Source of the DNA: Nymphaea colorata
Taxonomy: Eukaryota; Streptophyta; Magnoliopsida; Nymphaeales; Nymphaeaceae
Direction: 5' to 3'
NCBI RefSeq assembly: GCF_008831285.2
Contig: NC_045146.1
Location: 12,207,149-12,271,148 of the forward strand
Length of the DNA: 64,000 nt
Under the pieces are notes generated by a model. It ran no database searches, was not told the DNA's origin, and saw only the letters and a program-made list of their open reading frames with translations. This document shows, piece by piece, positions 1 through 64,000 of this stretch; the first letter of the stretch is position 1, and each line of letters starts with the position of its first letter. The position numbers and the translations under genes are program-made.

Positions 1-1483
1 CATGACACGATCGAGTTGTCAAGTCAGTTCCCTGGCCACTAACCAAATCATGTGTCGATTCGATCCAAATCCAATTTTTGACTTTGCCAACTGTACAAAA
101 AGTAAAGGTGAAGTCAACCATTTCATCTCCATGCTACTTATGAATTACGTTTGATTACCTTTAAGAAATTAGTTGCAAATAGTTTTTTTTTTTAATTTTT
201 AAAAATCGCTGTGGCTATTTTTTGGCTTAAGTTAATAGCAATTGCCTTTTGTGTTAATGATTTGACATGGAGACTCTGTCCACGCGCGAATGGTTCCTGG
301 TCGTGCCATCATCTATAAGGTTACTGAGTTTCGTGTTGCCAATGGACGACCTTATATATGTTGCTAATTTATATAAAATGTGCAGAAGTCTACAAAATCT
401 CAAATTATGTTTTTAATTTTAAAATAAAAAAATTGATGGAAGAGTACTTGGGAGTTGGGACTCGTCCAACCATGCGGCTCAGTTATATTGCTGGCTCTGC
501 CTGTATAAGAAGAAATCAGTTCAGAAAAATCCATCGACTGAGTAGAATTTTTTTCTAACAAAAAAGTCTGTAAAAACTCGTCTTATCAAATATATGTCGA
601 TCACTAATTACTTAGACAGAGCATATATAACAAAAATCAAATTACATCAAATCCAAATACGTTACAACACCTCGCAGACATTTGGAGAATGGAAGAAAAA
701 CTGGGTAGGAACAAGTAGAGATGTGAAAAACAATACAGCAGCAGTAATCATGGCAACTTATTCAAAACGGCACGCACAATATATGCGCATCGTTGCCATA
801 TACTCCAAAGCCAAAGAGCTAGCCTCCGCTTGTAAGGCACCATCAGCATTTCCGTCTAAGCCACGCACCTCCGACCCCATCGCCCAACCACCCAACCATG
901 TCTACATCAGGAAGAACATCTACACCAAAAACTTGACCCGCCAATTGGACCACTTTGTATGCGACTGCGATTCCCCCGACAGCCTGAGCGGCAGCATTTA
1001 GCTAAGAAGATATTTAACAAGGAGAATACGAATATTGAGTATGTTCTAAAAAATACAGTGTTCGTGTTTCAAGCAATATCATGAAAGAGAGACCGACTTA
1101 CTACTTCTACAATTTCTTCGGCGTTTCCTCCGTCCCGAGGCTGTTTGGAGCATTCTGCCATGGCATAAACTAAACTCATATTTGAACACAATGAAATTGA
1201 ACCATAAGAAACTATGTGCCAATAAATACTATAAATAATGTTAAAACGAGTTCAATCCATCCAACGACCAGAAAGAGGGAGTTAAGATCTTTGTCTAATT
1301 GAAGAAAGTTAGAGTTTCATTGGACAGGGGCATGAATCTTTTCTTTGATAACATAGAGTGGGAGGGTCAGTCTGACTCCAGGTCTCTTGTTCAATTAAAA
1401 AAAAAAACCATAAAGATGAAAGATGGGACGACTGTGGGAAAGTAATGAATGCACATCGTAACGGGTACAGTGAAGTAGAACAA
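1..1483. repeat. Segmental duplication block, copy 1
   Basis: This block is a diverged copy of 20640-22180 and 27530-29360. Shared landmarks, in order, are a cgatcgagttgtca-type stretch, a spacer with a poly-T run, the Met-poor stretch around 590-680, DC1 exon 3 remains, exon 2 remains and part of intron 1. The similarity stops abruptly near 1483 (after gaagtagaacaa), where IRE1-like sequence begins. Positions 1-770 hold no gene that I can support. Confidence 0.75.
775..1165 (-). pseudogene. Orphan DC1-gene exons 2 and 3, exon 1 missing
   Basis: Two 3' exons of the DC1 family survive here. Exon 2 lies near 1103-1165: acceptor catggcag, first full codon TGC, then CSKQPRDGGNAEE, and a donor GTAAGT. 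Exon 3 starts near 1000 after atcttcttag and reads LNAAAQAVGGIAVAYKVV, an acidic VDVLPDVDMVGW and then a frameshift; the family C-terminal helix resumes in another frame. No DC1 exon 1 lies upstream, because IRE1-like sequence starts at about 1484 inside what should be intron 1. The same frameshifted exon 3 occurs near 28.6 kb. Confidence 0.75.
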
Positions 1484-5547: not shown

Positions 5548-5602
5548 GAGCTCGAGACCCTCATTCCATTTCTATTCATATCCCCACACATAAGCAGCAG
5601 CC

Positions 5603-6395: not shown

Positions 6396-8381
6396 TCAGA
6401 AACCCCCGCCCATCCTTTTCATGTGCTCGAAAGCCAAAGATCTAGCCTCCTCTCTTAAGGCACTATCAAGGTAACCGCCGGAGCCAAACGGCTGGCCGAA
6501 GGTGCTCATGTCATCGTCGAAGTCGCCGTCGTCGTCGATGTCTGCGCCATCTTCAACGTCGTTATCTTCTCCGGCCTCCTCACCGAACCACCCATCCATA
6601 TCTATAGCAGGATCTATACCACCAAAAAGCTGACACCCTAGTCGGACCAAATTGACTGTCGCTGAGGTTGCCATAAGAGCATTTCCCTGAGAAGATATTT
6701 GGCAAGGAGAATAATATTGAGTATGTTCTAAAAATACAGTATTCATGTTTCTAACAACATCGTGCTATTATCTCTAATATTCGGTTATTAAATATAACTA
6801 CATCAATGATCATGCAATGTTTTCTAAAACAAGAATACGGTGTTCGTAAATGCTGATTCCCAATATGCCAGTGATTGCGTCCAAAAACATGCTGTTCGGC
6901 TATTCAACTAAGTATAATGGATGACCTCTTAAGAGTAATCCTTCTTCCTCTATATCTCCGAAAACACACACATTTTGAGGTGAGGTTTCAAAGCGTCAAT
7001 CACACTATGTTTAAGTTAACAATTACAAAATTGCAGCGACATGATTTACTGATGGTTTTGTTCACACACAGGGACACACAAAAGGGAGGTCTACGACCAT
7101 TGATTCCGTTGTCTTAACGCATTTTATAAAACTGCCCAAACTGGAGAAACCCATTTGTATGCGCAGGTTTATTGACATGTGTACTTTGTGACATCCCATC
7201 AACTTAAACTTGAAAATCACACACCGCCATATGGGAAACTATTTTTTGTAAAAACTGGAAAATGAAAATTATCTTTCTAACCTTTAAAATACTAGTGACA
7301 ACTTATTTACCATCCAGTGATGATTGAACTGAACTCAAAATGGTTGAGGATTTCAACTCCTATCTATATACATGTATAAAGTATGGAAAGAGAGTGAGAG
7401 AGAGAGAAAAAAAGTCTTACTAAGTTTAGTCTGCTCTGTTTGGTGGGGCCCTGTTGGTTATTGGAACATCCTGTCCTGGGTTGTTTCTTGAGGCACTCTG
7501 TCATGGAACCACATAATGCAAATTCATTCAAAGGTTATGGGATAGATTAAACTCATATTTGAATATAATGAAATTGAAGAATAAGAAAGTATGAGCCAAT
7601 AAACACCGTAATTCATGTTAAAAGGAGTTCAATATATCCAATGACCGAAAAGAGGGAGTTAAGACGTCCTAGTTTAAGAAAGTTAAAGTTTCATTGCCCG
7701 GCGGCATGAATCTTTGTTAACTTAGAGTGGGAAGGTCTATCGTGACTCCAAGTCTCTTTGTTAACATAGATGGAGGACGGACCGACTCCAAATTCGAGAT
7801 TAAAGAAAAATTCCTGGTGGCCATCGAGTATGATATGCATAAGGCTCCAAACATAATTAAACAGATTTCGCATACTTACTTGGGTGTAGAAAAAAGCTGC
7901 AACGGCTGCAGCTGTAGCAGCAATGCTGGATCTGAATGCCGCAAAAGCCACAGGAGGTGCGTCCCATGGCAGGTGGGCGGAACAGGAGCTGAAGTCGGTG
8001 CTGGTGGGCCGGGCTGAGTGCCTTTCGAGGCAGGTTAACGCATGGCAGATGGGCGTCGAATTGGCAAGTCTGGCAGTGGTAATTAAACCCTTGGCCACCG
8101 TTCCCGCATATGTCGCAACCGAAATGGCCGCTGCTGTAGGCAGATGCATAACGAAGCACGAGTTGGTGCTGGGGGTGCGCAGGGTTCTTAAGCAGCGTCG
8201 GCATAAAGCAGCAGGACCGGTGGAGGAAGAAACCGCAGAGGCCGCAACCGAAAAGGTCGACGTTCTCCGATGTGAAGGGGAGGTCGCATGCACGGCAATT
8301 TGCCGCCCTCACGCTGGCGTCCATTGTTCCAATATGTTGCAGCGGGTGGTGGTGGGAACCGTGCCGAAGCGTGGACGCCAT
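6396..8381 (-). CDS. DC1-domain protein with acidic C-terminal module, intact, 289 aa
   Basis: There are three exons on the minus strand: 8381-7880 (donor GTAAGT), 7497-7421 (acceptor gacag, donor GTAAGA) and 6686-6396 (acceptor ctcag). Phases are 1 then 0, and the joined frame is open. Exon 1 has three DC1 zinc fingers, with C-x2-C pairs and H-x2-C ends such as FGCGLCGFFLHRSC and CQTCQFDAHLPC. The third finger ends CSFFLHP, and exon 2 supplies the next ligand (K then C), giving H-x2-C. Exon 2 encodes the linker CLKKQPRTGCSNNQQGPTKQ. Exon 3 encodes a mildly hydrophobic start, an acidic stretch (EDNDVEDGADIDDDGDFDDD) and a helix ending EEARSLAFEHMKRMGGGF. DC1 proteins bind zinc and may act in protein or lipid binding; this one's partner is unknown. 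The ATG is preceded by a TATA box about 107 bp away. I am confident of exon 1; splice sites are inferred. Confidence 0.85.
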
Positions 8382-10600: not shown

Positions 10601-11283
10601 AATAGTAGAGGCATGGCAACTTATTGGGAACGCAGAGAGGAGGTTGCCAATGTAATTAGAGGTACTTGAAAGGCGGGGCAAGGAGGAAGATGCATCACCC
10701 TCCGATCATCCCTTTCATATGTGCTCGAAGCAAGAATCCAAGCTCCTTGCGTATACGATCGTCAACGACATGCAGGTCCCGGAAGGATACCCGGAGAAGG
10801 CTGAAGAGGTCGGTGATGTTCGAGACGTCCTCTGATCCGAAGAGTAAGGCGTCCATTACTTCACCCAAGCCACCGAAGGCGTCAAAGAGCAGGTGCATGA
10901 CAACTTTCCTTCAGATCAATTTTGCAAATCGTCCTACCTGCATTTTCATAAGAAATTAAATCACCCCTTCACTTCTCACCTCAGGAGACAGGACTTTACG
11001 AGGAGTAAATATTTATGCATGCAACAAATGTACACTCAACAAAACAGAAAGGGGGTTTGGGATCTAACGGAAACATCCGGCTTTCGAATCTTAGTCGCAT
11101 CCACCTGATCAACGTATGGGCAAATTCCCAAAAATTACGGGCATATAGAATTGGAAACAGTCAAAAGATTCATCAGAATGTTTTTAAAATTTTACTGGTT
11201 AAGGCAGTAAATTTTACCATTTTACCTACTACACAATATAACGTAAAAACATGCCGAACTTTATTAATACTCTGTAACACACA

Positions 11284-11893: not shown

Positions 11894-12004
11894 ACTGATG
11901 CTGAGAGAGAGAGAGAGAGAGAGGAAAGGGAAAATAACATTAATAAAAGCCCAACAAAAAGTTGAACTTGAAAAAGATTACATCTACAACTCAACTCTTA
12001 ATAC

Positions 12005-12740
12005 TTGTATGAGGTTGAATGTACCATATTACCCCATAGGTTACGGGAAATTAACCAAACGTCATACAAAATGGAGGATGCCATGCGTTCCACTGAGACC
12101 GCCTCATTTCTATATATAATATCATTTCTGGAGTTCCAAATGACCCACCAAAACGTGAACAGCCAAATTCTCCAAATGGTGCGCCATTTCTTTTTGTGTC
12201 TCACTCTAGTTGGTTCATGGATCAGGTCCCGAATTGTAGATATGCTTGTGACTTCGATGGGAGGCATAGACCAGGTAAGTGCATAAAGATCTTGAGACAC
12301 TCGACAAAACCATACCAGGTGAGTGGTAGTTTCCTCGGCACAACAACATAGAGGGCATCTACTCGCAAGGTGAAAACCAGACCTTTTGAGGTTATTCTGA
12401 GTCTGAACGCGGTCCAATAGAATGAGCCATGCAAAAGTTTTGGATCGTCTAGTAGGACCTCCAGCCCAAAGAAGATTATGAGGAAACCAGTTGACCCCGA
12501 GAGGTTGAAGCGAGCTATATGCATGATGTACAGAAAAACGCCCTTCACCATCTCTAGCCCATGAAGAAAAATGCTCTATAGAATCCGTCTTTGAGTTGAA
12601 CTTGGTGAGGGTAGATATCCAAGCCTTCATCAAATGAGATGTTCTTCGTCTGTTGGGGAGAGAAGAGAGACTCTGCAAATTGTATTTGTGTCGCAAAGTC
12701 ATCGCACAAGTAGAGTTGGAGTCTTGGATGAAAGCCCACC
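12005..12740 (-). mobile_element. LINE (non-LTR retrotransposon) C-terminal fragment, second
   Basis: An open stretch of about 240 codons contains GEGRFSVHHAYSSL, WAGGPTRRSKTFAWLILLDR, CPLCCCAEETTTHLVWFC and IWLFTFWWVIWNSRNDIIY. These are typical of the zf-RVT zinc-binding domain and the tail of LINE ORF2. The RT core and endonuclease are missing, so it is 5' truncated. The protein differs from the neighbouring fragment at 11579-11893, so two insertions or two elements are implied. Its frame runs upstream into the (CT)n tract and the DC1 exon 2 by chance. Confidence 0.88.
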
Positions 12741-12751
12741 ACTTTAAAATA

Positions 12752-12775
12752 AGAGAGAGAGAGAGAGAGAGAGAA
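12752..12775. repeat. (GA)n at the intron 2 donor of the 13-kb DC1 pseudogene
   Basis: On the minus strand this is GTATCTTTCTTTTTCTCTCTCT, the CT tract directly after exon 2 seen in most family members. Confidence 0.85.
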
Positions 12776-13827
12776 AAAGAAAGATACCATTCCATCAATT
12801 CGCGCTTTCTCCTCTGCCTTGATTAAGCACCCTGCAATCAAACCAAGTAGCGCAAATTCACTCAAATATAGTTTTCATAAAATAGTAAATGACTTGTCGA
12901 CCAACGACGATTAGATATAGTATAACAGAAAGTTTCAATGAGCTAAGCGGTGATCATCCGTTGGCCTCCCCGCCAGGTATAGTCGCATATATAGTATAAA
13001 AATGCAAAAACATTGAAAAAAACGTTATGCAATGTAATAGATTTCAAGCACTACCTGGGTGTGCGTCGAAGTTGCAGCGGCTGCACATGTAGCGGCAATT
13101 GTCTATCTGACCGTGGCAAATATCACAAATGGTGCTTCTCACGGGAGGCATGACCTTACTCCAACTAATTAAAAAAAATACATTAAAAAAATTGAAAAGC
13201 TTTAGTTGTACAATGTTAAAATTAGAGTTTAGTTTGCCCCTACCAAAATAAGGGATTAAACAATTTAGCTGGCCCAAAAAAATTCTACTTTTTTCTCTGG
13301 TTCTACAAAAGTGGGAAACAAGAGGTCAAGGAAGTGGTGGTGGGCTTGGCAGATTAACATCCGAGGCATGAGAGCGCAAAAAAAGTGGGCGTCGAAGCGG
13401 AAACTGTCGCAGTGATAGTTGAACCCCCTGCCGACCTTCCTGCATATGTTGCACAGGAAGGCGTCGGTGGCGGGTGCATAAAGAGGCCGGAGCACGTGCT
13501 CATGGAGCGCAGAGTTCGACTGAAGCGACGGCAACTGCGAGTGCGACAGCAGGGCGCAGCAGCGGTGGAGGAAGAAACGACAGTAAAGGCAGCGATAAAG
13601 GGCGTCGACCTTCCCCGGTTTGAAGGGCTGGTCATCTTGTGGCCATCCCGTTGGTGTCCGATATCTTCATCAGCCGTAGGAGGCACTGGTCGTGGGCACG
13701 GTGCCGCTTCGTGCCGCAGCGTGGTCGCCATAGCTAAAGGTGGACGCTTTGGAATTGGGCGCTCTCAAGATCGCATGCAGATGCAGCTCGGTATTGAAAC
13801 GGTGAATCAGATGCCTGGCTGCTTCTT

Positions 13828-20639: not shown

Positions 20640-21756
20640 CATGAACGCTTTTATGAGAGACATGAAATGGATACTAACCGAACCATTTGCAAATATGTTC
20701 TCATCATCAATTTCTAAATATCCATAAGCCCCATGGAAAATCAGTGATTGAGAGAGGGGAGAGAGATAAATACAAATTAAGCAAATGTTATTGGATTCAC
20801 CAATTCCTTCTAGAGTTGTTGACAAATCATAACCAATATTATGTTACTCTATACGGAGTAGAAAGAAAGTATATTATACTTTAAGATTATAGTAAAAAAT
20901 ACACTACAAAAATTTATGACATGAAACAGTTGAATTTTCAAGTCCGTTCACTGACCATTAATCCGATCATATGTCGATCCGAGTCCGATTTTAGACTTTG
21001 CCAACTATAAAAAAAAAAAAAAAGGTGAAGTCAACCATTTCATCTGCATGCTATTTATGAATTACGTTTGATTAACAAAAAAAATCTGTAAAAACTCTTC
21101 TTATCAAAGACATGTCGAGCACTTAATTACTCAGACATTGCATATATAACAAAAATCAAATTACATCAAATCCAAACACGTTACAACACCTCGCAGACAT
21201 TTGGAGAATGGAAGAACAACTAGGTAGGAACAAGTAGAGATGTGGTAAACAATACAGGAGCAGTAGTCATGGCAACTTATTCAAATTAAAACGGCACACT
21301 ATAAAAGAAGGCCGGTTAGCTGCCTATCGTCGCCATATGCTCGAAAGCCAAAGAAGTAGCCTTTGCACGAAAGGAACCATCAGCATAACCGTCGAGGCCA
21401 CGCAGCAGGCGGAAGAGGTTGCCGAAGTCGCCGGACCACCCACCCGCGTCTACGACGAATGATGATGATGAAAATTTGAACCAACAAAACCCGCTAATTG
21501 GCCGATTACGAGTGCGGTTCTGGCCACCGCAGCCACAACACGCAGCTGAGAAGACATTTGACAAAGGGGATATTAACATTAAGTATGTTCTAAAAATACA
21601 GTGTTCGTGTTTCAAGCAATATTGTGTTATTATGTCTAATATTTGGTTATTGAATTAAAAAAATAAATTCAATTAAATGAATGATTCGATCTCAAGCCAA
21701 GTGGATCGAGCTGGGCATCGTATCGGGCTGGACCCGGCTCAATAACAAGTCTCTCT

Positions 21757-27681: not shown

Positions 27682-29360
27682 AATGTTATTAAATTCATGA
27701 CTTCCTTCTAAAGTTGTTGACAAATCAAAACCAAGATTATGTTGCTCTATACTAAGTAGAAAAAAAGTAGGTTGTACTTTATGATTACAGTAAAAATATA
27801 TATAAAAATTTATGGCAGGACACGATCGAGTTGTCATGTCATCCCTGACCGCTTTACCTATCATATGATTCGATCCAAGTCCAATTTTCGACTTTTCCAA
27901 CTATTAAAAAAAAAGGTGAGGTGAACCATTTCATCTGCATGCTATTGATCAATTACGTTTGATTACCTTCAAGAAATTAGTTGCAAATAGTTTTTTTAAA
28001 AAAAAAAAAATCTGTGGCTGTTTTTTTGCTTAAGTTAATAGCAATTGCCTTGTGTGTTAATATCATTTTTCTCTTTCTGATTTGACGTGGAGACTTGGTC
28101 CACGCACGAATGGTTTCCGGTCGTGCCATCATCTATAAGGTTGCTAAGGTTTCGTGTTGCCAACAGGCGACCTTATATCTATCGATGAATCTAAAAAATA
28201 TCAAAGTATGTTTTTAATTTAAAAATAATAAAAAAATTGAGGGAAGAGTACTTGGGAGTTGGGATTCTTCCAACCATGCGGCTCAGTTATATTGCTGGCT
28301 CTGCGTGTATAAGAAGAAATCAGTTGTTCAGAAAAATCCATCGTCTGAATAGAATTTTTTTCTAACAAAAAAAGTCTGTAAAAACTCGTCTTATCAAAGA
28401 TATGCCGATCATTAAATTACTCAGACAGAGCATATATAACAAAAAGGAAACTACATCAAATCCAAATACGTTACAACACCTCGCAGACATTTAGAGAATG
28501 GAAGAAAAACTAGGTAGGATCAAGTAGAGATGTGATAAACAATACAGCTGCAGTAGTCCTGGCAACTCATTCAAATTAAAACGGCACAGTATAGCTTCCA
28601 TTATTACATCGGCGCAAGAGCCTCCGCTTGTAAAGGCACCATCAACATTTCCCTCTAAGCCACGCACCTCCGACCCCATCGCCCAACCACCCATCCATGT
28701 CTACATCAGGAAGAACATCTACACCAAAAAACTTGACCCGCCAATTGGACCACTTTGTATGCGACTGCGATCCCTCCGACTGCCTGAGCGGCAGCATTTA
28801 GCTAAGAAGATATTTAACAAGGAGAATACGAATATTTAGTATGTTCTAAAACATGCAGAGTTCGTGTTTCAAGCAATATTGTGTTATTATGTCTAATATT
28901 CGGTTATTGAATTAAAGAAATAATTTCAATTAAATGAATGAATCGAGCCCAAGCGAAGTGGATCGAGCTGGGCATCGGCTGGGCTTCAGCCGAGCTATAT
29001 ATATATATATATATCAAGAGAGAGAGAAACTTACAAAGTTCATCGGTTCCGGTGCGGTTGGAGCATCGTGTCATAGGCATAGATTAAACTCACATTTGAA
29101 CATAATGAAATGAAACTATGAGCCAATGGGCACTATAAATCATGCTAAAACGAGTTCAATACATCCAATGACCAGAAGGGGAGTTAAAGACTTGTTTTTC
29201 TAATTGAAGAAAGTTAGGGTTTCATTGGCCGGGGGCATGCATCTTTGTTAACATAGAGTGGAAGGGTCATTCTGTCTCCAAGTCTCTTGTTCAATTAAAA
29301 AAATAAAGACGAAAGATGGGACAAATGTGGGAAAGTAATGAATGCACATCGTAACGGGTG
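27530..29360. repeat. Segmental duplication block, copy 3
   Basis: Aligns with 20640-22180 and 1-1483, including catgaaacgaatgctaaccc, cacgatcgagttgtcatg and DC1 exon 3 and 2 relics. The part at 29395-29470 also matches intron 1 of the 8-kb DC1 gene (gatggaagacgaaccgactcc). Confidence 0.75.
28560..29070 (-). pseudogene. Orphan DC1-gene exons 2 and 3, exon 1 missing
   Basis: Exon 3 relic: after atcttcttag the minus strand reads LNAAAQAVGGIAVAYKVV-like sequence, then a DVDMDGW-type acidic stretch and the same frameshift as the copy near 0.8-1.0 kb. Exon 2 relic (about 29033-29068): TGCTCCAACCGCACC is followed by a gtaagt donor, but the acceptor AG is mutated (gacac). Both exons are dead. No DC1 exon 1 follows at higher coordinates. 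Confidence 0.7.
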
Positions 29361-34359: not shown

Positions 34360-37150
34360 TCAAGGGAAGCAAGAGGAAGAAGATGGCTCGCCCATGGCCA
34401 TCGTTTCCATATGTGACAGAAGCAACATGTTAGCCTCCTCCTGTAGGGCAATATCATCAGTACCATCACAAGCAGAGAGGTCGTAGAAAGTATCCATGTC
34501 GACATTGACGTCGTCGGGGCCAACGGGATCGTCACCGTCAACATCTAAATTGTCGTCGACTTCTTCATCAACATCATCACCATCACCATCACCATCACCA
34601 TCACAATCCAAATCAAAGGCCGCCGTCACACCCAAAACAATGGTGCCAATCAATACCTTGCCAATGATGCCTTTTGTGACGGTTTTCGTGGCGTGTTTGA
34701 TGACCTTCTTTGCCTGCGGTTTGTTGAGGAAATCATTTGCGGGAAATGTTGGGTCGACTATCTAACGGCACACTACTCCTCTATGTTCAATGCAGGATTT
34801 CACACACAAAAAAAAAAAGAAAAGAAAACAAAACAAAAAAAAGAAGAAGAAGACAGTAGAGCTCCATATGATGGCAAAGTATAACGCAGAAAATCATTCC
34901 CCCATTTTGTCCTGCTGGAGGGAAGCTTGTTTTAGACCTCCAAACACACAATACAGACTTTACTTACTTTTGGTAGCATCTCCCATCCCACTCGCTCATT
35001 TCAATTACTTTGGCTTCTTCTAGTAATTCATCACTACTTCACTACGGAATTGGCGAAAGTATTCTAAAAAGGTGCTTGATAACAAAACTATTGTCTTTGA
35101 GATGCATGTTTCTAAACTACTATATATAAGTTTGTTTTAAGAAACATAATTCTATAATGACTATATGGTTTAAGTGATCGAAATTTGGAGCAGGTTCAAA
35201 GAGGGTTTCATTGATGGTGAGCGATGAGGGTTTCCTCCCCAGTCGGGAGGCTGCCTCCACGGACATGGATATTTGTGTAGATGAAGATGGGGATTCCAGG
35301 ATGAGGGTTGCAATGGCCAATAAAATGACGGGGCTGGTGAGTGGTTTGGAGGATCCAAGTCGCCATCAAAAGGAGACCACGAACGCCCAACCTTCAAGAG
35401 TTGGGCTTCGGTGGTAGACAGCGGGGAGAGTTCCGACCCTACATTCAGTTCCAAAATGCTCCTTTAACGCCCTTTCATACATTCCAATTAAATCTGGGTA
35501 ACGGGCTTGGTATTATTTTTTTATTAAATTTCTTTAATAATAATATATATTATTAATAAAAATGTATTTTATATTTAAATTTTTTATTTTATATTAAAAA
35601 ATATTTTTTATTTTAATCGGACTGAGCTCAGATTTCAAGCGCCTGGCCGACCTGGGCCCTACTCTAATCGGACCGGGCAGGCTGGGCTGGCCGGATGCTC
35701 AGCCCAGGTCTAATTCTAATATGTATACGATTAACTAATGGATTGAATATATGTATATATATATTGACGGTGTCAAGGTAGGATCTTGTTGAAAAGAAAA
35801 GCCTGCTAAGAGAGAGAGAGAGTTACCTTTGCTCTTCTGTAACCTTTTTTTCTTTCTGAGGAGACCCGTTGCTTAGTTATGCAATCTGCAATGAAACCAA
35901 GTAGTAAATGGATGGATTAAATTCAAAATTGAATTTGTCGAAAGTGAACAAGGAATTATAGAATTTGTATCGACGGACGGACCAAAAGAATTTGTATCGA
36001 CACATAAAAATTAGTTAAAGCACTGCTGTTGGTGGGCTTAATTCAAGAATTTGTATCGACAAAGTTCGATCGGCACCCGCAGCGTTAAGCATATGAAACA
36101 TGTCAACCATACAGTCTACAGTTAATTTACGGAAATATTTGATGATCACAAGACCGCAAGCTTTTTTTCGTAAAACCAGCTGATGACCTTTCTCTTTTGA
36201 AAAAGGCACTGTCTTTAACTTTGTTCCTTTCTATAATACAGAAGGCCTCGTTACTTTTAACCACATGCCTATCAAATTATCCCATTTTGTGGGCCAGTTA
36301 CCAAACCGCTCTTTAGAAATCTTATGTTTTACTTTATTCGATTTCAACAACGACGATAATTCCTGTGATCGTTCCTACAAAATAAGAAGAGTCAGGGGGA
36401 TGGGTTAGTTAGTTCCAAGCGCCATTGACGACAACCTAATAAAGGACGTAGGGTGTTAAATTACATGATATCTTGAAATTTTTCTTAAGAAATCTTTGAA
36501 GAATATAGGCGTATCAAAATTTTGTATTCAAGAATACATAAGGTGCATTGCGGGTGGCCTACCTTGTATATAGTCAGAAATAAATACTCTAAAAAGATCA
36601 AAAAAGAAAAAGGAGGCATATAATAGCTTCCAAATCCATACTTACATGGGTGTAGATCAAAGACGCAGGTTTTGGCGCTGCAGCTGTAGCAGGCTCGGTG
36701 TATCTGAAGGCCGCAAGCGTCGCAGTGGGTGCTTCTCTTGAAACCTGGGCGGTACGATAGCCGCAGCAGGTGCTGGTGCCCGGGGATGCGGGCCGTCTGA
36801 TGCAACTGCAAGCACAAGGGATGGGCGATGAACTTGCAACTCTGGCAGCGGTACCTGAATCCGATGACGGTCTTCCCGCATATGTCGCAGGAGGCGTCAG
36901 TGCTGGCAGCCGGTGCATCAGAAAGGCAGAGCGGGTGCTTTGGGTGCGGATCCTGCCCCTCAAGCGACGGCGACAGGATGGCGCAGGGGCGGTGGATGAA
37001 GTAGCCGCAGCGGCAGCAACCGTAGAAGGGTTTCCCCGATCCGAAGGGGATGCAGCACGCACGGCAACTCGACGCCATCCCGTTGGTCTCCGACATTCCC
37101 ATCAGTCGCAGAGGGCAGTCGTGGAACCGATGCTGAAGCGGGGAAGCCAT
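34360..37150 (-). CDS. DC1-domain protein with acidic Asp/Gly C-terminal module, intact, 305 aa
   Basis: Exons are 37150-36646 (donor GTAAGT), 35885-35827 (acceptor attgcag, donor GTAACT) and 34713-34360 (acceptor ccgcag), phases 1 and 0, joined frame open. Finger 1: C29/C32, C45/C48, H53/C56. Finger 2: C88/C91, C102/C105, H110/C113. Finger 3: C143/C146, C154/C157, H167, with C170 coming from exon 2. The linker CITKQRVSSERKKGYRRAK is basic. Exon 3 begins AKKVIKHATKTVTKGIIGKV, then an aliphatic LIGTIVLGV, an Asp/Gly run coded by CATCAC-type repeats (34567-34606), VDMDTFYDLSACDG, and a helix EEANMLLLSHMETM. An upstream in-frame Met exists at 37216, but MASPLQHRFHDCPL aligns with the other family starts. 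Zinc binding is expected; the role is unknown. Confidence 0.87.
34567..34606. repeat. (CATCAC)n coding repeat
   Basis: Hexamer run in exon 3 of the 37-kb DC1 gene, coding Asp-Gly repeats on the minus strand. Confidence 0.85.
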
Positions 37151-39829: not shown

Positions 39830-40195
39830 TTCAAATTCTGATACACGATAATTCCTGCAGACATATGGGCAATGAGACGGAACAAAGGAAGAAAAATTAT
39901 GCACAAACAAATATATATGATGTAAGATGTAATTATTAGAGGAGTTTGACTTATTATAAGAAATTATTCAAGACTCACCCTAGCTTCCTTAACGAGACTG
40001 ACACTATTGGAGTCGTCAAAGGCACTTAGGACGACGAAGACCTTCACCGGCGGCCACCCGTAAAAAGCAAGGAGACAGCCCCCGCGTGCAATGGATCGTC
40101 AGCGCCAGGCAGGTCGCCGGAGCCATTCATCTCGACGGTGATCAAGTAGTCGTCGTCGCCGTTGCTGTCGTCATCACCGTTGTATGGCAAAAAAA
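39830..40195 (-). pseudogene. Orphan DC1-gene exon 3 with its 3' flank
   Basis: On the minus strand, 40195-40060 reads NGDDDSNGDDDYLITVEMNG, then SGDLPGADDPLHAGAVSLLF. This matches exon 3 of the 49-kb gene (FDDLPGLDGVDDPLQAEAVS). The hydrophobic exon 3 start and exons 1-2 are missing; a poly-A/T run lies at its truncated edge (40190-40205). The 3' flank at 39840-39910 resembles 48900-48970 and 54325-54400, the 3' flanks of other family members. Confidence 0.75.
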
Positions 40196-41085: not shown

Positions 41086-43206
41086 GACTTGTTCTCACCT
41101 CCGACCATCCGTGTCATATGTTCCATAAGGAGGGAGGCAAACTCCGAGCGCAAATGTTTGTGAACACCAACACAGAAGCCAGGCGGCAGGTCGCAGAAGT
41201 TAATTTTCTGGCCGCCGTTTTTAACAAGAAGGCGGACGGGGGCACGGACGATGTTGGAGATGTTTTCGTGGTCCACAGTTCCGAATAACAAGGCGTACAT
41301 AGCGTCACTTAAACCGAAGTGACCAAAGAGTAGGTGCATGGAAGCGGTCTTTGCTAGGAGTTTCGTAACTTCCCACATCTGCATTTTGACAAAAAAAAAA
41401 AAAAAAATCATCCCTTATTAGAGATGTCAATGTATTCAATTTGAATATGACAGAACTGTTACTAAAAAACCTGATGGAAAAATTTTAATAGCTGATTAAA
41501 AATTCGGTTCTGATTGGATTTAGTTTTAAATAAATACCATACAACATCCAACAATCTTACATTGTATTCAGTTCAAAATTTGGATTCGGACATGAATGTA
41601 AAAATCATATTGGAATTATGAAGTGAGATTTCAGATTTAACTGCAGATATAGCTTTTCTTCATTCGTATTAGAATCCGAATTTTAATTCGAGTATATTAC
41701 TATCTCAAAGGTAGACACGAATAAGATTATATCCGATTTAAATATGATCTATTAGCACCCATACATCTGGTTGACACATTCTGTGACAATTTATTATCGT
41801 TTCATGAATTCGCTGAAAATAAAGTATTACAGGAATCTACCCCGAGACCTCAATGTCCAAGCAAAATAGAATAATGACATGCTTATGGCATACATTCTCT
41901 TGTCTAACTTTAGCCATTTCATATCATTAAATTGTAGGAAAATATTCGAAAACGTACACAAAGAATTATGTATACTATTCAAGACAAACAAAATTAACCT
42001 TTTCAATTTGTTAAGAATGCACCTTACTTGTTCTTTACTTAACCAAGCATATTTAGAAGAGCATCTTTCATTAATTTAGATTTAAATCAACAAAAATTAC
42101 CATTTTACCTATTAAAATATAACATTCAAAATTTGCCTATTTTTATACAATAATTAGGTTTTTATTGAAGAACTTTCTAGAGAGACATAATTACTTTTCT
42201 TATTCGTCCTCTCCTTCTGCCTGGTATGGTTCTCTCTGGGCTGGTTCTCTCTGGGTTGGTGCTTGGAGCTGCCTTAGTTAAGCACCCTGGAATGAAACCA
42301 AATATTACAAAATCGATGGTGAATAACAATGAGATGGATATACAAAAGTGGAAATTGAGTTAAACAGCAGGCATAAAAAGCCTAGGCTTCCTTCCTCCCT
42401 TTCTTTTGCCTTCAGGTTACTTCTGGGCCTAGGACCGCTAAATTGAAGGAAATTAAAATTTCATTTTCCGGGGCCACGAATCTTTGTTGACGTAAAAGGC
42501 TGTTGTGAGCCGAAGTCCAGCAGGGGCCAGGGTCCCCTCCAACTCCAAGCTGTGATTTAACGAAATCTCAGAAAGAAAGCAGGACTCGTTTTCCCATAGA
42601 AGCCATGTTACTAATAAATCACCTTTGTTTTTGCAATTTCTTGGAATGGACTCATATCTTACTGAGAATAAATGTGGATCGTCCATTTTCATAATGTTGC
42701 TATTGTTTTCTTAGTGATAGATTGGGTTCTGTTTCCCAGGAAAAAGAGAAAAGGACGTCATTACATACTCCAAAAACTTACCAGGGTGTACATCAAAATT
42801 GCAGGGGCCGCACCTGTAGTGGCAAGTGCGTATACAAAACCCGCAAGCGTTACAGAAGTCATCTTGACTACGAGGGAAGGGAGGAAGCGGAGGTTGAGGG
42901 GGTGCTCGTGGGTGCAGCTGCTCACCGTCTGAGGCATGTAAGCGCATAAAACGTGGGCGTTGAAGTTGCACTTCTGGGTAGATGAGGCTCCTGTAGATGT
43001 CGGGCTCCTGAAGGAGGTGGAGCTGGTGGCGATAGTGCGCAGGGTGCCCCCTCAAGTGACGGCGATATCAAGTTGCAGGCGAGAAGGTTGCTCCTCGATG
43101 TGAAGAGGAGGCCGCATCTACAGCAACTCCATGCCTTCCCGCCCGTCTCCCTCATGTTCATCGGTTGCAGTTGGTCCTGGCAGTGGCACGCTTGCTGATT
43201 CCCCAT
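40977..43206 (-). pseudogene. DC1-domain gene, broken in exon 1
   Basis: Exons are 43206-42782 (donor GTAAGT), 42286-42195 (donor GTAATT) and 41378 down to about 41100. Exon 1 is about 80 nt shorter than in its relatives: finger 1 (CCRCGLLFTS) loses its second half, and two or more frameshifts break finger 2. Finger 3 reads CNACGFCIRTCHYRCGPCNF and DVHPG. Exon 2 is open and unusually long, with an internal duplication (PERTSPERT), and ends RRRGRIRK. Exon 3 starts MWEVTKLLAKTASMHLLFGH and runs to LLMEHMTRMVGGENKS, where relatives stop (GMIGG, RMGGGF). Here no stop occurs and the frame enters the TA repeat (YIYIY...) to 40977. Exon 1 damage makes a working DC1 protein unlikely. Confidence 0.83.
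41012..41083. repeat. (CA)n(TA)n microsatellite
   Basis: CA run then TA run, directly after the expected end of DC1 exon 3. The exon frame continues through it. Confidence 0.95.
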
Positions 43207-49116: not shown

Positions 49117-49926
49117 TTAAGAGGTAGAAGATGCTTCATCAAAGGCCATACCTTCCATATGTGTTAGAAGCAAGGAGACTGCCTCTGCCTGCAATGGGTC
49201 GTCGACGCCGTCAAGACCAGGCAGGTCGTCAAAGGTATCCATGTCGACGCCGAAGTAGTCGCCGTCCATGTCGTCGACGTCCTCGTCTCCACCGTCGGTG
49301 TCGTCGAGATCGTCATCTTGATCGGGAACGTCGGTGTCGCCGGAATCCTCAAGGAACGATCCTCCACCCAAACCAAGAAGGGCCAACACTACGTGCGCTG
49401 CAGCGGCTACTAAGACGCGTTTTCCAAATTCCTTCGCCTGCATGCAGTTCGTTGAGAAAATCACTTGTCTGTTGGATATCAGGTCCAATGGTTCTCCTGT
49501 CTCTCACTGTTGTAGAACTAACCCACCAATCGCTTGACTGTACTCCTACCTTTTCTTCTAAAAGCTTCCGTTACATTTTCTTTCAAAATCTTTGGTTGTT
49601 ATGTAATAAGAAGCCTTCGTCTTTCATGTATTTGATTTATTCAGAGCTAGCTATTAGAGCGAAAACTACCGGAAACCATGTGGATCGGAATGGGATGTGC
49701 CAGGTAGCTCGAAGGGCTATCTGTTCCGATCCACGACGTCTTCTTCCAAGAGTTCAACACCAAAACGGAAGGGAAGTTGTAAAACTCAATTCAATTACAC
49801 AGGGTAGTATCTTCCCCGGTCAAAAACATAACTGTCAGAGGGAATGGACTTTTCGCAAGTATGAATATTTGTGGAGACGGTCTCGTCAATCATCAATTGA
49901 ATTGATCCATCGGGCACTGCACAGAT

Positions 49927-49968
<42 letters not shown>

Positions 49969-51249
49969 TGCCTTGGAAGTTTTCTTCTTTGGCAGTCGCT
50001 TCCTTAAGCACCCTGTCAAGGAACCACATGATGCTAATTGATTTCAAAGCAATGGATTAAAGAAAGTTAAATTTGAACTTAATCAAAATGAATAAGAAGA
50101 AATTATCCGTCAAAGAACAGGGTCAGTCACGTTGACAGCAGTTCTATCGAAGTCCCTGCAAAAGAGGTATTTAAGATCTTCAAAATGAAGAAGATTAAAT
50201 ATTTTTTCAATGATTGGGTACTTGTTTGTTAGCAGAAGTGGCACGGTTGTTCTGACACAATTAACTTGTTATGAGAAAAGGAAAACGTTCCCACGGTAAT
50301 CATCCAGGAAATGTCTTACGTAAGTTAAGTAGCATGACATCTTGAAAATTTTCCAAGGAAACTTTTGGAGAAACAGCGGCAAGCAAATATATAACTTAGA
50401 ACATAAAAAACACGATACATAAATGTAAAAACAACTACACGAAATAGGTTCTTTGACGCACGATGCATGGCAAAGTGTCGATCAAACTTGAAGATGTTTT
50501 TGACAAAAGTTTAAAGAATTGTGTATTAACTTTTGTGGGTAAAATCAAAGGTCTAGCGGACTATAGTCCCTCTCCCACCGAAAGCTAAATCTTGATAAAG
50601 CCAATAGTTTCGAACAACAAAAACTACACAGTAAAAGATAAAGCTTCTACAAGAAGGAGGTGATGAGCAGTTGCTTTCCCTTAATCATACGTACGTAGAA
50701 CATGAATAAAAAATGGCATATAATTAAAAAGGATCCCATATACTTACATGGGTGTAAAACGAAGTTGCAACTGCTGCACTCGTAGCAACAATGGTGCACC
50801 TGACTGCCGCAAACGTCACAGCGAGTGCTTCCCGCGGCAGTTGGTTTGAACAAGAAACGCAGAGGGTGCTCGTGGCCGGGGTAATGGGCCGTCCGAGGCA
50901 GGTTTGCGCACAGGGGATGGGCGTCGAAGTTGCAACTCCGGCAGTGGTAGTTGAGCGCGCTGCCAACCTTCCTGCAGATGTCGCAACGGAAGGAGCCGGA
51001 CGGGTAGGCAGGTGCATAAAGAAGGCGGAGCTGGTGCTGGTGGTAAGCAGGATCGCCCGGAAGCGACGGCGGCTGCAGGGCGCAGAAGCGGTGGAGGAAA
51101 AAGCCACAGTTGCGGCAGCCGAAAAGGACGAGCTCCGATGCAAAGGGCAGGCCGCATGCACGGCAACTAGTTGCCGTTCCGTTGGTCTCCGATATTCCCA
51201 TCTGTTGCAGCGGGTGGGCGTGGGAGCCGTGCTGAAGCCTGGCCGCCAT
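49117..51249 (-). CDS. DC1-domain protein with acidic C-terminal module, intact, 287 aa
   Basis: Exons are 51249-50748 (donor GTAAGT), 50012-49972 and 49437-49117 (acceptor atgcag), phases 1 and 0. Three textbook DC1 fingers: FGCRNCGFFLHRFC; CDICRKVGSALNYHC with CNFDAHPLC; CDVCGSQVHHCCYEC with CNFVLHP. The last ligand comes from exon 2 (Trp-Cys). The exon 2 linker CLRKRLPKKKTSK is strongly basic and ends at AAG followed by GCAAGATCTCTC, so intron 2 appears to use a GC donor. Exon 3 starts AKEFGKRVLVAAAAHVVLAL (hydrophobic), then about 35 residues dominated by Asp, VDMDTFDDLPGLDG and the helix EAVSLLLTHMEGM. An in-frame upstream Met (51369) is rejected because MAARLQHGSHAHPL matches the family start and the TATA box lies between the two. 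It is the clearest member of the array. Zinc binding is expected; the biological role is not shown. Confidence 0.87.
49929..49965. repeat. (GA)n at the intron 2 donor
   Basis: On the minus strand the CT run begins within 8 nt of the end of exon 2 of the 51-kb DC1 gene. Confidence 0.95.
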
Positions 51250-54565: not shown

Positions 54566-57380
54566 TTAGGTGGAACTTGTCCCAGTACCCGCGTCCATCC
54601 CTTCCACATGCGACAGAAGCAAGCAGCTAGTCTCCTCCTGTAAGGCATCGTCGACAGTACCATCAGAAGCAGGGAGGTCGTAGAAGGTGTCCATGTTGAC
54701 GCTGAAGTCGTCGTTGCCATCGGGAAAGTCACCGCCAATATCGGGAACGTCGCCGCCATCTTCATCATCGTTATCAACATCTGTGTAGTCCAGGATGTCC
54801 ATTGCCCCATCCAAACCAATAGTCCCAAGCACTACTTGACCGAATAGAGTTTTCGTGACGATTCCTGCGGTGAGTTCAAAGACTTTCTTTACCTGCAGTT
54901 CATTGAGAAAATCATTTCCGTGGGGACATTGTGTTCGACTATCTGCATTATAAGTATTTTTACAAGAGCTGGACATTGCTAAAAATTTTGGTGATGCATA
55001 TAACCAGCTTCCTTTTCATAGGTCTCCCACTGCCATAGGGCCCATTTCCTTTTTTTTTTTTTGTTACGATACCAAGTTTATCAACCAAGTTATTCTAAAA
55101 AGGTTTTTGACAAGCTCAAAAGTATTTGGTCTTGGAAACGCATGTTTCTAAGGTACTACATGCTTGTTTCAAGAAACATTATGATTATCATTATAGCATT
55201 TGAATGTTAAATGGAAGAGCAATATCCATAATCACATAAAGCATGTTTCTCGAATCAAATACATAGCTTTCTTAAACCGTGTAATAGTAAGGGCCTCCAA
55301 ACAATAGGGGTTGGACAACTGGACCAAGTAAAGAAGAATCTCTTGAGATAAAACAACAAAACAAAACCAAAACAGATGGGTTATTTCCCCGTTTTGGTAA
55401 TGCACCGAACACACCAAAGAAGAGGCTTTTATATATATAAGAGTAAAAATAAAAAGTGTAAATCAATATTAAACGACACAAATATCCATCATTCTTTTTT
55501 CCTTATTTTATTCTTAATTGTTCATCATGTTGAATCAGATGGCACAAATTAAATGGCGAGTGACTCTAAAAAACAAGTCACCGAACCCACCAAGAAGAGG
55601 CTTTTATGGGCGTAAAGAAAATTGCGTCCACCACCCCCTGCACACAACAAACATATGCCAACAAAAGGGCGGATATTGTTGAAAAAAAAACATCCTTTTA
55701 AGTCTTTTCACTTTTTCGATTCCCTTTTCTGTCTTTACAGGAATTTCTTTTATCAAAATAAAAGCATTTTTGTCATTAACCCTGTTGAGTGCATGACATT
55801 TTGTGCAATAACCAGGTTGAGTCAGTAGTACTCAAGTTTTAGATTTTAAGGCTTAAAAATATATAAGTGAACAAAATAGCTCAGAGGTATGCACTTAAAA
55901 ATAATCAATTTTTGTGAGTAACCGCCCATACAAGGCCACACTTACTCCTGGTTTCAGCCAAATTAATGGTATTCGTGGGGTCAGAGATAGGCAACTTGTT
56001 GGAAAGAAAAACATGCTTAGAGAGAGAGAGAGAAAGAGAGGGAGAGAGATATATACTTTTTCTCTTTTATACCCTTTCTTTCTTCCCGGGTAGGCCAGTT
56101 GCTTAGTCGTGCAGTCTGCAATGAAACCAAGTAGGGCAAATTAGCTCAACACCAACGGGTTGGATTAAATTCAAATATAAATTTAATGAAATTGAATGTG
56201 GAGATGAGCTAGGTTTTACTGATATTTAAAAATTAAAGGACTGACATAGGTGGTCTGAATTGAAGATTAATATATATAGACCTTAGTGGTAGATGGAGGG
56301 GCAGACCAGAGCACCTATATCATTACACATGTGAACATGTCAACTAGACAGTACTCTACATTTAATTTAATGAAATTTCTAATCACTAGACTGGTTTTTT
56401 CATAAATCCATCTGATGATTTTTTTTCTTTTCAGTTTCTTGGAATGGACAAAAATCATTCGTAGAAAATGGGGACCGTGCATCCTTTCAGAAAAATGTTG
56501 TTTTTACTTTTTGCTTTCTTGAAAAAGGAAGGTCCCTTCTCAGTACTTAATTATCATTGGTTTAGTTCATCATGACTTCAAACAACATAGAAAACTTATG
56601 TTTTACTTGTTTCAATTTCAAGAACTAGGAGAATTTCAAGAACTCAAGAAACCTTCGGAAAAACAGGAGCGACCAAATATGTATTTTACAAAACAATTAC
56701 AAACCAGAAAATAAATATAAAAATGCCAGGCGCATCTAGATTTGTGTTTAAGATTATATAGATTAGGTGCTTTGTGGGTGGCCCCCCTTGTATACAGTCA
56801 TAAATATACGCTACAAAAAATTCAGAAAAAATGGCATATAACTAATATTGATTCCAAAGCCATACTCACCTGGGTGCAGATCAAAGACGCAAGTTTTGCA
56901 GCTGCAGCTGTAGCAGCAATAGTGTATCTGAAGGCGACAAACGTCACAGTAAGTGCTTCTCTCCGAAGGTGGGCTGTACGAGAGGTGTAGAGGGTGATGG
57001 TGGGCAGGGCAGCGGACCACCTGAGGCATCTGAAGGCAGAAGGGGTGGGCGTGGAAGTTGCAACTGTGGCAGTTGTAGTTGAACTGGCTAACGGCGTTCC
57101 CGCATATGTTGCAGGCAAGCGCGCCTCTGCTGCTTGCGGGCGGTGCATAAACAAGGTAAAGTGAGTGGTGGCGGTGCGCAGCGTGGCCTTCAAGCGACGG
57201 CAACAGCAGGGCGCAGCCGCGGTGGAGGAAGAAACAGCAACTGCGGCAGCCGTAAAGGACGCTCCCCGGTCTGAAGGGCAGGCCGCAACCGCCGCAACTT
57301 GACGCCAACCCGTTGGTTTCCGACTTTCCCATCAGTTGCAGCGGGTGGACGTGGGCACCGTGCCGAAGGGTGGTCGCCAT
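54566..57380 (-). CDS. DC1-domain protein with acidic C-terminal module, intact, 298 aa
   Basis: Exons are 57380-56870 (donor GTGAGT), 56115-56057 (acceptor attgcag, donor GTATAT) and 54892-54566 (acceptor ctgcag), phases 1 and 0, joined frame open. Three DC1 fingers include YGCRSCCFFLHRGC, CNICGNAVSQFNYNC with CNFHAHPFC, and CDVCRLQIHYCCYSC with CVFDLHP. Exon 2 gives the final Cys (Asp-Cys) and a basic linker CTTKQLAYPGRKKGYKREK. Exon 3 starts VKKVFELTAGIVTKTLFGQV, then an acidic tract (DVDNDDEDGGDVPDIGGDF), VNMDTFYDLPASDG and the helix EETSCLLLSHVEGM. A Met three codons upstream (MQA) is possible; MATTLRH is preferred by alignment. Closest sequences are the 37-kb gene (exons 2 and 3) and the 13-kb pseudogene (start and promoter). 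Confidence 0.87.
55000..55990. other. Intron 2 of the 57-kb DC1 gene
   Basis: AT-rich intron. A short repeat (caccgaac.caccaa.aagagg then cttttat) occurs at about 55400 and 55580. No other gene is seen inside. Confidence 0.5.
56021..56048. repeat. (GA)n at the intron 2 donor
   Basis: CT run on the minus strand directly after donor GTATATATCTC of the 57-kb DC1 gene. Confidence 0.9.
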
Positions 57381-61810: not shown

Positions 61811-64000
61811 TTACTCAAGTGCATGTTCCTTGGTGATAGTGCCAATGTTAGAAGAGCTGGTTGATGGGGGTTTGGTGGCCGAGGAAGATGCCATATACTT
61901 CCGAAGCAATTTGACAGCCTTCCTCAGCAAACTATCGTCAGCTTCATCGATGCAGTCAGGTAGGTCGTCAACGGTAACCACGTCGAGGCCGCTGAAGTCG
62001 CCGTTGCCGCCGGGGAAGATGGTATCGACGGGGAGGTTGTCGAAGCAGTCGCACAAGAACGCGAGGTCCTCGGGTCCGAAGAACAGGACGTCCACCACTT
62101 CACCCCAGCCACCGAACGCGTCAAGCAGTAGGTGCACGCTGACTTTCCTCGCAACCCGTTTTGTAACTTCCCATAACTGCATGCGTTTTCACGAGACTTC
62201 AATAATCACCCTCTCAATTCGCTATATCCGTGATTTCTTTTCAACACTTGCAGGAGTCGGTCAGTTTTCAGGCTTTTTTTTCCGCCTTAACTTGTATTAG
62301 GACGACGAACAAATTCATTGTCACACTTGCTTTTGCAGTTTAGAAATTAATATAAGCCCGTATTTTGAGAGTTACGGTGCCTACTTGAGATTTTTTGTGC
62401 ATGGTCTTAACGTTTAAGCCCGTATATATATATATATATATATATATATTTGCTGTCGTGTGTCGGATAGTTGTTGGATTACTCATTAAAAATTTGCCAC
62501 TAAAAGAACCACCTATCTTTAAAAGCACCATAAACCGTCACTGTTCCATAAACCGTGGCTTACACAATTTAGTTGCAATTTTAAATTTTAGTCATCCACC
62601 ATTGAACTCTATGTGTATCAAAAGAGAGAGAGAGAGAGAGAGAGATACCATTTTCTCTTTCGTCCATTTCTTCTTTGATTTGGTTGCCGGTTGCTCATGC
62701 TTTTCTAAGCACCCTGTGAATAAATCATGTAATTCAAATGCCTCAATATTGAATTTATGAAATTGAACAAGAAATTTTAGTTTGTAGCATTGAACTGCAT
62801 TCATGTCAACAAGTGGTCCAAACTGACGAGAACAGGAATTTCCATTATGGGAGCTACACTCCCCGCCTTTAGGAAGAAAGAAAAAGTGGAATTTAAGACT
62901 TTCAAGTTGAAAAAGTTGAAAGTTTCATTGTCCAGGCGCATGCAGCTGGTTAAGAAAAAGTGGCAGGATTCAGGGCCGGACCGAACGGAGTCCGAAACTT
63001 TTCCTTGGGGAGTAATTGTATTTTCACAATTTTTTTATAGGGGTGAATAATATTTTTCCGAGATATTTGCCGTTGCCAAACTAAAAACCTTTTTCAAAAT
63101 ATTAGGTAGAAACGTTTGTTTGTTCAAAATCGGAGGGTAGGTCGCCCATCGTGGTAGTTGGAGGGACAGGCCAGAAGTTCCATCGCATGCAATTGAAATA
63201 TTAGTTGAAATCATCGGAGGCGGAACTAGTGCAGACATTGCACGAAAACCATCAACAAAATTTCCGAACTGGAAACTAGTTTTCTTAAAACCGGCCGTGT
63301 CCGTTAACTTTATTTTCTTTTCCAATTTATTGGGGATAGAGCTGGTTATGGCTTCGGGAACATACTTAGAAAGCATAATTTCAAAGTAAATATAGTAAGT
63401 AAAATTTGCGTTCGAGATTATATAAAGTGTTGATTATATAAAACTGTACCAAAATTTCTAGAAAAAACTATGAACGAAGTATTGCAGGAAAATCAAGGGT
63501 CGATCGCAATATAGTCCCTCCGCAAGCAAAATGTTAATAAGACCAGCAGGAATGGCTTCCCGAACAACAAAGACCATGCAGTACAAGATAAAGTTTTCTA
63601 TGAGAGGGAGGTGATCAGCAGATGCCTTCTCTTATACAAAATCATGACATAAAATAAAAATGTCGTATAATTAAAAAAAAAAAAAAGACCCAAAAACGTA
63701 CCTCGGTGTAAAGCAAAGTCGCAATTTTTGCTGCACTTGTAGCAGCAGTGGTGTATCTGAAGGCGGCAAGCGTCACAGCAGATGCTGCCTTGGGTAGGTG
63801 GGCGGAACAAGAGGCGAAGGGGGTGCTGGCGGCCGCGGCTGCGTGCCGTCCGAGGCATGTGAAGGCACAAGAAGTGGGCATCGAAGTTGCAACTCTGGCA
63901 GTGGTAGATGAAGCCGCTGCTGCCGCTGTCCCCGCAGATGTCGCAACGGAAGGCGCCAGAGGGATGGGCGGGTGCAGAAAGAAGGTGGAGCGGGTGCTGT
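61811..64000 (-). CDS. DC1-domain protein, 5' end beyond the window edge
   Basis: Exon 1 enters from the right edge and ends at 63702 (donor GTACGT); exon 2 is 62713-62649 (acceptor tcacag, donor GTATCT); exon 3 is 62176-61811 (acceptor atgcag). All parts in view are open. Exon 1 shows the end of finger 1, finger 2 (FRCDICGDSGSSGFIYHC, CNFDAHFLC) and finger 3 (CCDACRLQIHHCCYKC, CDFALHR). Exon 2 adds Gly-Cys, giving H-x2-C, and a basic linker (CLEKHEQPATKSKKKWTKEK). Exon 3 is of the second type: LWEVTKRVARKVSVHLLLDA, FGGWGEVVDVLFFGPEDLAF, LDVVTVDDLPDC, then a basic helix LLRKAVKLLRKYM and a Ser/Thr-rich end. It is less acidic than the exon 3 of its neighbours. Zinc binding is expected; the role is unknown. 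Confidence 0.83.
62424..62450. repeat. (TA)n microsatellite in intron 2
   Basis: TA run inside intron 2 of the edge DC1 gene. Confidence 0.93.
62623..62644. repeat. (GA)n at the intron 2 donor
   Basis: Minus strand GTATCTCTCTCTC: the CT run starts inside the donor site of the edge DC1 gene. Confidence 0.93.

Follow-up and report, generated by a model that had tools for sequence, protein, structure and literature searches.

Introduction

DC1 proteins are numerous in plants and are commonly catalogued as stress-related zinc fingers; their mode of action is poorly known. The closest described systems are the plant DC1/CHP-rich proteins (C1_2, PF03107), such as tomato SlCHP, Ipomoea CHR and pepper CaDC1, and the proteins analysed here likewise contain three C1_2 stretches. 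Their genes form tandem clusters, as do the tomato DC1 genes, for which the accessible part of PMC10707348 describes clustering on chromosome 1. The exon plan differs, as the genes described here have two introns (phases 1 and 0), whereas in the accessible parts of the published surveys 15 of 21 tomato genes are intronless and Ipomoea genes mostly contain at most one intron.

The DC1 family has no single cellular site, published proteins being cytoplasmic, nuclear or vacuolar-membrane. In the available sections of the respective reports, a three-C1-domain protein of tomato resides chiefly in the cytoplasm when alone and encounters a fungal effector in the nucleus (PMC11085264), IbCHR10-GFP is distributed like free GFP (PMC13033517), and VLG is located at the vacuolar membrane (PMC10707348).

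DC1 proteins are already known; the acidic tail that we describe, encoded by a third exon, is a new variation on them. Among the matches listed from the open-access DC1/C1 literature, so far as the text of these papers was available, no acidic C-terminal module was described, which does not prove its absence; the papers compared included PMC10707348, PMC13033517, PMC3427875, PMC9878698, PMC11085264 and PMC11963502. The word 'acidic' has no occurrence in the main text of the DC1 family papers PMC10707348 and PMC13033517.

Outside the family, the tails resemble acidic activation domains of the VP16 and CITED2 type, described by the composition rule in the accessible part of PMC10550315, in that their acidic tiles contain W, F, Y and L and that the models, at low confidence, show little structure beyond short helices. 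In contrast to these domains, one of the tail classes described below (class II) fails the strict form of the rule, and the DC1 proteins of the cluster are not known transcription factors; the likeness is one of composition and predicted structure. As its own exon, with a simple charge layout and three classes in tandem paralogues, the tail offers a direct experimental handle. If it activates transcription, the DC1 family would gain a mechanism.

A DC1 cluster with a three-exon plan

The window, by which we mean the whole stretch of DNA analysed, comprises 64,000 nucleotides of plant nuclear DNA (C9:12207149-12271148). In the genome searched (407,766,735 bases, 783 contigs), the PF03107 (DC1) profile gave at least 70 matches, 29 of which form a minus-strand run on C9, from 12.16 to 12.29 Mb, that spans the window. 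A further DC1 cluster is present on C2 of the same genome.

Gene modelling was restricted to copies without visible stops or frame changes, and splice sites were hand-picked from candidates in the sequence alone. Four window genes gave open spliced models of three exons, all on the minus strand, encoding 289 aa (8-kb gene), 305 aa (37-kb gene), 287 aa (51-kb gene) and 298 aa (57-kb gene). Exons 1 and 2 were placed at 8381-7880 and 7497-7421 in the 8-kb gene, at 37150-36646 and 35885-35827 in the 37-kb gene, and at 57380-56870 and 56115-56057 in the 57-kb gene; the third exons encode a class II tail in the 8-kb gene (6396..6686) and class I tails in the 37-kb (34360..34713) and 57-kb (54566..54892) genes. 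A fifth gene, at 62 kb on the same strand and absent from the first-pass annotation, is truncated by the window end, with exon 3 (class III tail) at 61811..62176, exon 2 at 62713-62649 and exon 1 past the end; completed outside, it follows the same plan and encodes 309 aa. The plan recurs in four genes wholly outside the window, namely g12276 (298 aa), g12177 (276 aa), g12167 (309 aa) and g12282 (310 aa).

In all nine fully modelled genes intron 1 is in phase 1, intron 2 is in phase 0, and the last Cys of finger 3 comes from exon 2. Intron 1 follows the His-Pro of finger 3; then come the short exon 2, the phase-0 intron and exon 3. Exon 2 begins by supplying the missing Cys (HPWC in the 51-kb gene) and continues into a linker, which was expected from the first-pass annotation to be basic and is indeed net basic in eight of the nine genes (+3 to +7; 0 in g12177). 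Unusual donors are required in intron 2 of the 51-kb gene (GC at 49970-49971 (-), AAG|GCAAGA) and in g12177 (GTGGTA and GTCTCT).

The C1_2 profile matched all four spliced window proteins in three stretches each, at 77.7-96.4 bits (cut-off 26). Support for exon 2 from this score is mixed, since splicing it in raises the score in two of the three genes compared (37 kb, 75.8 to 80.8 bits; 51 kb, 94.3 to 96.4 bits) and slightly lowers it in the third (57 kb, 78.3 to 77.7 bits). Paired CxxC and closing HxxC motifs, the Cys/His zinc ligands, are present in all three fingers of the four proteins. The C1_1 profile of typical (phorbol ester/diacylglycerol) C1 domains placed the spliced 37- and 51-kb proteins above its cut-off and the 8- and 57-kb proteins below it.

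Architecture of the 51-kb gene and its tail

In the 51-kb gene (minus strand), exon 1 (50748..51249; C1_2 96.4 bits for the spliced protein) encodes three DC1 fingers, of which the third still lacks its final Cys, and exon 2 (49972..50012) adds this Cys and the basic linker WCLRKRLPKKKTSK (net +7). Exon 3 had been annotated at 49117..49437, and the open, phase-0 model reproduces these limits exactly (49437-49117), with the 8-, 37- and 57-kb genes behaving alike. It comprises 106 codons and a stop and has a net charge of -27, so that the charge along the protein runs from +7 in the linker to -27 in the tail.

The tail opens with block A, a hydrophobic segment of net charge +2 (residues 182-207; 49360..49437), the counterpart of which in the 57-kb relative is a helix modelled at low confidence. 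An Asp-rich stretch of 32 residues follows (residues 211-242; 49255..49350; net -18), then the core VDMDTFDDLPGLDG (residues 245-258; 49207..49248) and a C-terminal Leu-rich segment (residues 260-280; 49141..49203), predicted as a helix in correspondence with the 57-kb tail model. The string D-M-D-T-F-x-D-L-P, which had been attributed to three genes, occurs exactly in the 51-kb gene only: the 57-kb core starts with N, the 37-kb core ends in S, and the 8-kb gene reads DMSTFGQPF.

A tail family in three classes

A profile of the 37-, 51- and 57-kb tails, run against the 1303 window ORFs of at least 30 aa, returned ten rows at E<1, all of them tail loci. They included two tails outside the profile, those of the 8-kb (E 3.5e-9) and 62-kb (E 3.8e-7) genes. 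A profile of the last block only recovered tail loci and one unrelated ORF (E 0.86). Applied to 3178 ORFs from sixteen further 10-kb stretches of C9, a six-tail profile gave eight rows, corresponding to seven distinct tails because one locus lies in two overlapping stretches. All seven are located 0.8-1.8 kb downstream of DC1 matches, one of them at C9:17.87 Mb, 5.6 Mb distant. The same profile found no tail in five stretches at C9 11.80-11.90 Mb, which are home to other DC1 ORFs. A genome-wide search with the 57-kb tail, which speaks for tails close to class I, hit six places, all on C9. Judged by these matches, the tail exons are homologous and form one family.

Six DC1 ORFs elsewhere in this genome (five on C2, one at C9:11.9 Mb) lack this family and have different tails (best profile E 0.35). 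In prokaryote genomes, a search for relatives gave 249 pattern matches, none of them confirmed by tblastn. A DC1 ORF on C2 at 18.30 Mb carries a Gly-rich acidic tail (net -11) with no significant match to the window tail profile, and another at 18.31 Mb has a short acidic run and a helix-like end, LEVARKLLHMRMLEG, with a faint likeness to the last block (profile E 0.35).

Ten tails were grouped by eye into three classes. Class I (37, 51 and 57 kb) has a net charge of -22 to -27 and the core [DN]MDTF[DY]DL[PS] followed by LLLxHxExM. Class II (8 kb, g12167, g12276, g17872) has a net charge of -16 to -21 and the core DMS[TS]FGQ followed by ARSLAFEHM. Class III (62 kb, g12282, g12177) is less charged (-4 to -13), with GEVxD in block A of all three tails and WxVTK in two. 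The zinc-finger, basic, acidic layout originally proposed stands as an order of parts (three DC1 fingers, linker, tail), but acidity varies by class and the linker of g12177 is neutral. The g12167 tail (C9:12165050-12165370) contains a seeming internal duplication, with GHQILGW repeated, that lengthens its acidic part.

Further minus-strand copies in the window, which the first-pass annotation did not mention, are damaged. The 43-kb copy has a class III-like tail (41094..41378) and an exon 1 broken across several frames, and a 40-kb tail remnant (40059..40136) has no recognised DC1 head alongside. Degenerate tails were located in the 13-kb copy (10695..10955, in-frame stop), in the 23-kb copy (21316..21654, frame changes), at about 1 kb (788..1052, internal frame change) and at 28.7 kb (28617..28850); the last is absent from the list obtained with the 37/51/57-kb tail profile. 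In the 13-kb copy, a zf-RVT (reverse-transcriptase-linked) fragment (12001-12822 (-), E 5.9e-16) separates exon 1 from the tail.

Exon shuffling of heads and tails was considered after DNA matches showed the 8- and 51-kb genes to be alike in intron 1 and exon 2, with no match in exon 3. The idea was dropped, as topologies 1, 4 and 8 of the eight compared were acceptable for both exons.

Domain searches and predicted structure

None of seven tails reached the cut-off of any Pfam family, the sole row being a Cupiennin match of the 37-kb tail (E 0.52; 11 bits, cut-off 27). The PDB sequences contained no convincing relative of the tail, with a single row at E 0.98.

AlphaFold models were computed for two tails, each from a six-row alignment. 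The 57-kb tail had a mean pLDDT of 50.2 with helices at 2-25 and 82-101, the latter best scored (blocks of pLDDT 68); the 62-kb tail had a mean of 49.4 with helices at 2-21, 25-46 and 81-98. The predicted layout, at low confidence, thus has helices at both ends and an unstructured middle. Disorder is favoured by these models and is not proven by them, because low pLDDT values are usual for many proteins with six-row alignments. The first-pass annotation had seen here a module whose order of parts fitted no named domain. No name emerged from Pfam, the PDB sequences or the literature matched, but the region is predicted to be unfolded and, going by the models, 'disordered acidic tail with a C-terminal helix' describes it better than 'domain'.

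Acidity, composition and a possible partner-binding role

The tails stand out from their surroundings in acidity. When 311 stop-to-stop window ORFs of at least 60 aa were ordered by the acidity of their most acidic 60 residues, the first five all held tail exons, with a net acid of 27 (37 kb), 26 (51 kb), 22 (57 kb), 20 (8 kb) and 16 (62 kb); the 40-kb tail remnant ranked sixth (11), and the next ORF reached 7. The 51-kb tail exon (net -27) is thereby second among the 311, and over all ten tails the net charge ranges from -4 to -27 by class.

We applied the composition rule for acidic activation domains to every 39-residue tile. According to the accessible text of PMC10550315, the rule was built on human factors, and tiles that contain long acidic runs have a lower chance of activity. 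Among the 311 window ORFs only tail loci passed, five by eq. 1 and six by eqs 2 and 3, with the 40-kb remnant counted every time. The strict form (eq. 1) was passed by five of the ten tails (37k, 51k, 57k, 62k and g12282), that is, three of three in class I, none of four in class II and two of three in class III, with every passing tile inside the tail. Eq. 3 was passed by nine tails, of which g12177 and g17872 passed it through a single tile and passed neither other form; g12276 failed all three forms. In a control, the post-DC1 tails of the six other DC1 ORFs of the genome all failed (0/6). Class I and two of the three class III tails thus have an activation-domain-like composition.

A nine-residue activation pattern was also tried and set aside: it matched 2, 3, 1 and 2 times in the 8-, 37-, 51- and 57-kb tails, against shuffled means of 0.7, 1.3, 1.5 and 1.4, which is no clear enrichment.

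Our leading interpretation, to which we give a probability of about 0.38, is that exon 3 encodes a disordered, partner-binding tail that is perhaps activation-domain-like. Given the passes of the composition rule, a coactivator-binding, activation-domain-like tail is the most likely single reading in class I and in some class III tails. Against it stand the failure of class II under eq. 1, the human origin of the rule, the fast change of the tail within classes and the varied cellular sites published for DC1 proteins. Fingers and basic linker together would anchor the protein, be it to a partner, to nucleic acid or to a membrane. The tail, in the order hydrophobic helix, Asp-rich linker, short core (resembling [DN]MDTF in class I) and terminal Leu-rich helix, would present hydrophobic residues in an acidic context and bind a second protein, and this binding might recruit a coactivator as acidic activation domains do. 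The exon-3 tail itself is real, fast-evolving and, by prediction, mostly unstructured, while protein production, cellular place, partner binding and an effect on transcription are what we infer. A bolder version, which we consider decidedly doubtful, would make the DC1 subfamily a set of lineage-specific transcriptional co-regulators, in which fast-changing fingers pick the partner or nucleic acid, the separately spliced acidic exon recruits coactivators and switches of tail class between tandem paralogues set the strength or kind of output.

Evolution of the tail

In Nei-Gojobori comparisons of the four window genes, exon-3 pN/pS was 0.54-0.71, with an upper bound below 1 in five of six pairs, at a dS of 0.62-2.20 that puts synonymous sites near saturation in several pairs. 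Exon-1 pN/pS was 0.69-0.92 (upper bound below 1 in three of six pairs). Within classes, with more copies included, exon-3 dN/dS was 0.26, 0.34 and 0.64 in class I, and in classes II and III it was 0.73-1.10 in eight of nine pairs and 1.85 in the ninth; the pN/pS upper bound fell below 1 in two of twelve within-class pairs, both involving the 51-kb gene. With exon-1 dN/dS (DC1 fingers) at 0.62-0.87 within classes (nine pairs, eight genes), these values imply fast evolution of the subfamily in both exons. Strong purifying selection on the tail was accordingly dropped as a description, the five-of-six signal of the four genes having shrunk to two of twelve within-class pairs once more copies were added. 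The comparisons point instead to some constraint between classes and to weak or diversifying change inside each class.

In pairwise tail comparisons, 37 of 41 internal gaps had a length divisible by three, in a set of preselected open copies with overlapping pairs. A neutral copy would stay stop-free with a probability of 0.05-0.36 at the divergences tried, so a single open copy proves little and the case rests on nine matching models.

The foremost alternative to a partner-binding tail, although a rather unlikely one, is that the tail is near-neutral: a weakly constrained, disordered spacer or solubility tail with loosely kept acidity and no fixed partner. The class II and III dN/dS values fit such a spacer, as do the many length changes and the class-dependent core motif. 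However, the terminal block and the core F are common to classes I and II despite near-saturated synonymous sites, and the exon-3 upper bound is below 1 whenever the 8-kb gene is paired with a class I gene (three pairs).

The fingers also change fast, with Cys/His ligands kept in the four proteins checked. Exon-1 dS is 0.41-0.51 in all six window-gene pairs, against the 0.62-2.20 of exon 3, a gap that gene conversion in exon 1 or a mutation difference could explain.

Electrostatic and membrane alternatives

Measured in 21-residue windows, charge in the 37-, 51- and 57-kb proteins peaks at +9, +9 and +6 in the linker and reaches -12, -13 and -10 in the tail. Such a charge reversal between linker and tail would also suit an electrostatic latch, in which the tail would fold onto the linker and fingers, or hold a basic partner, and so tune binding to nucleic acid or acidic lipid. 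We regard such a latch as unlikely: in g12177 the linker is neutral and the tail just -4, and the conserved terminal helix would be left unexplained.

The hydrophobic character of block A likewise allows a membrane role, with fingers, basic linker and block A docking on a membrane and the acidic part facing the cytosol, and the accessible text of PMC10707348 does place VLG, another DC1 protein, at the vacuolar membrane. Block A had been described as hydrophobic or basic amphipathic. Hydrophobicity stood, but amphipathy is weak and the moment mostly lies within shuffles: of 1000 shuffles, 46 (37 kb), 72 (8 kb), 202 (62 kb), 346 (57 kb) and 602 (51 kb) reached the observed value. An amphipathic membrane helix as a general trait was therefore rejected, four of five copies not exceeding shuffles at the 5% level. 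With the 37-kb copy alone weakly above them and the block A helix predicted at low confidence, a membrane module is improbable.

Finally, it is very improbable that exon 3 lies outside the transcript and owes its acidity to simple repeats: although the models come from sequence only, the 51-kb gene requires a GC donor, the 37-kb stretch holds a GATGGT-like run and same-residue acidic columns mostly share codons in 37k/57k (3/18 differ) and the 8-kb pairs (2/12, 3/11 and 4/11), all nine gene models fit, the codons differ in 8/17 columns for 37k/51k and 9/16 for 51k/57k, and net acidity lies 4.2-5.9 s.d. above first-order Markov draws (four exons, 2000 draws each), the highest draw equalling the 8-kb value and remaining below the other three exons.

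Minor features of the window

The GATGGT-like run lies within the acidic stretch of the 37-kb tail. Only the 37-kb copy has a calcium-loop-like DxDxDG run, spotted by eye. At 5594-6019 (+) lies a reading frame for a Kunitz-type protease inhibitor (E 5.7e-22, profile positions 1-111 of 176). Antisense to exon 3 of the 51-kb gene runs an open frame of 266 aa (49128-49928 (+)) without a Pfam match, which is probably a by-product of GAC-rich codons.
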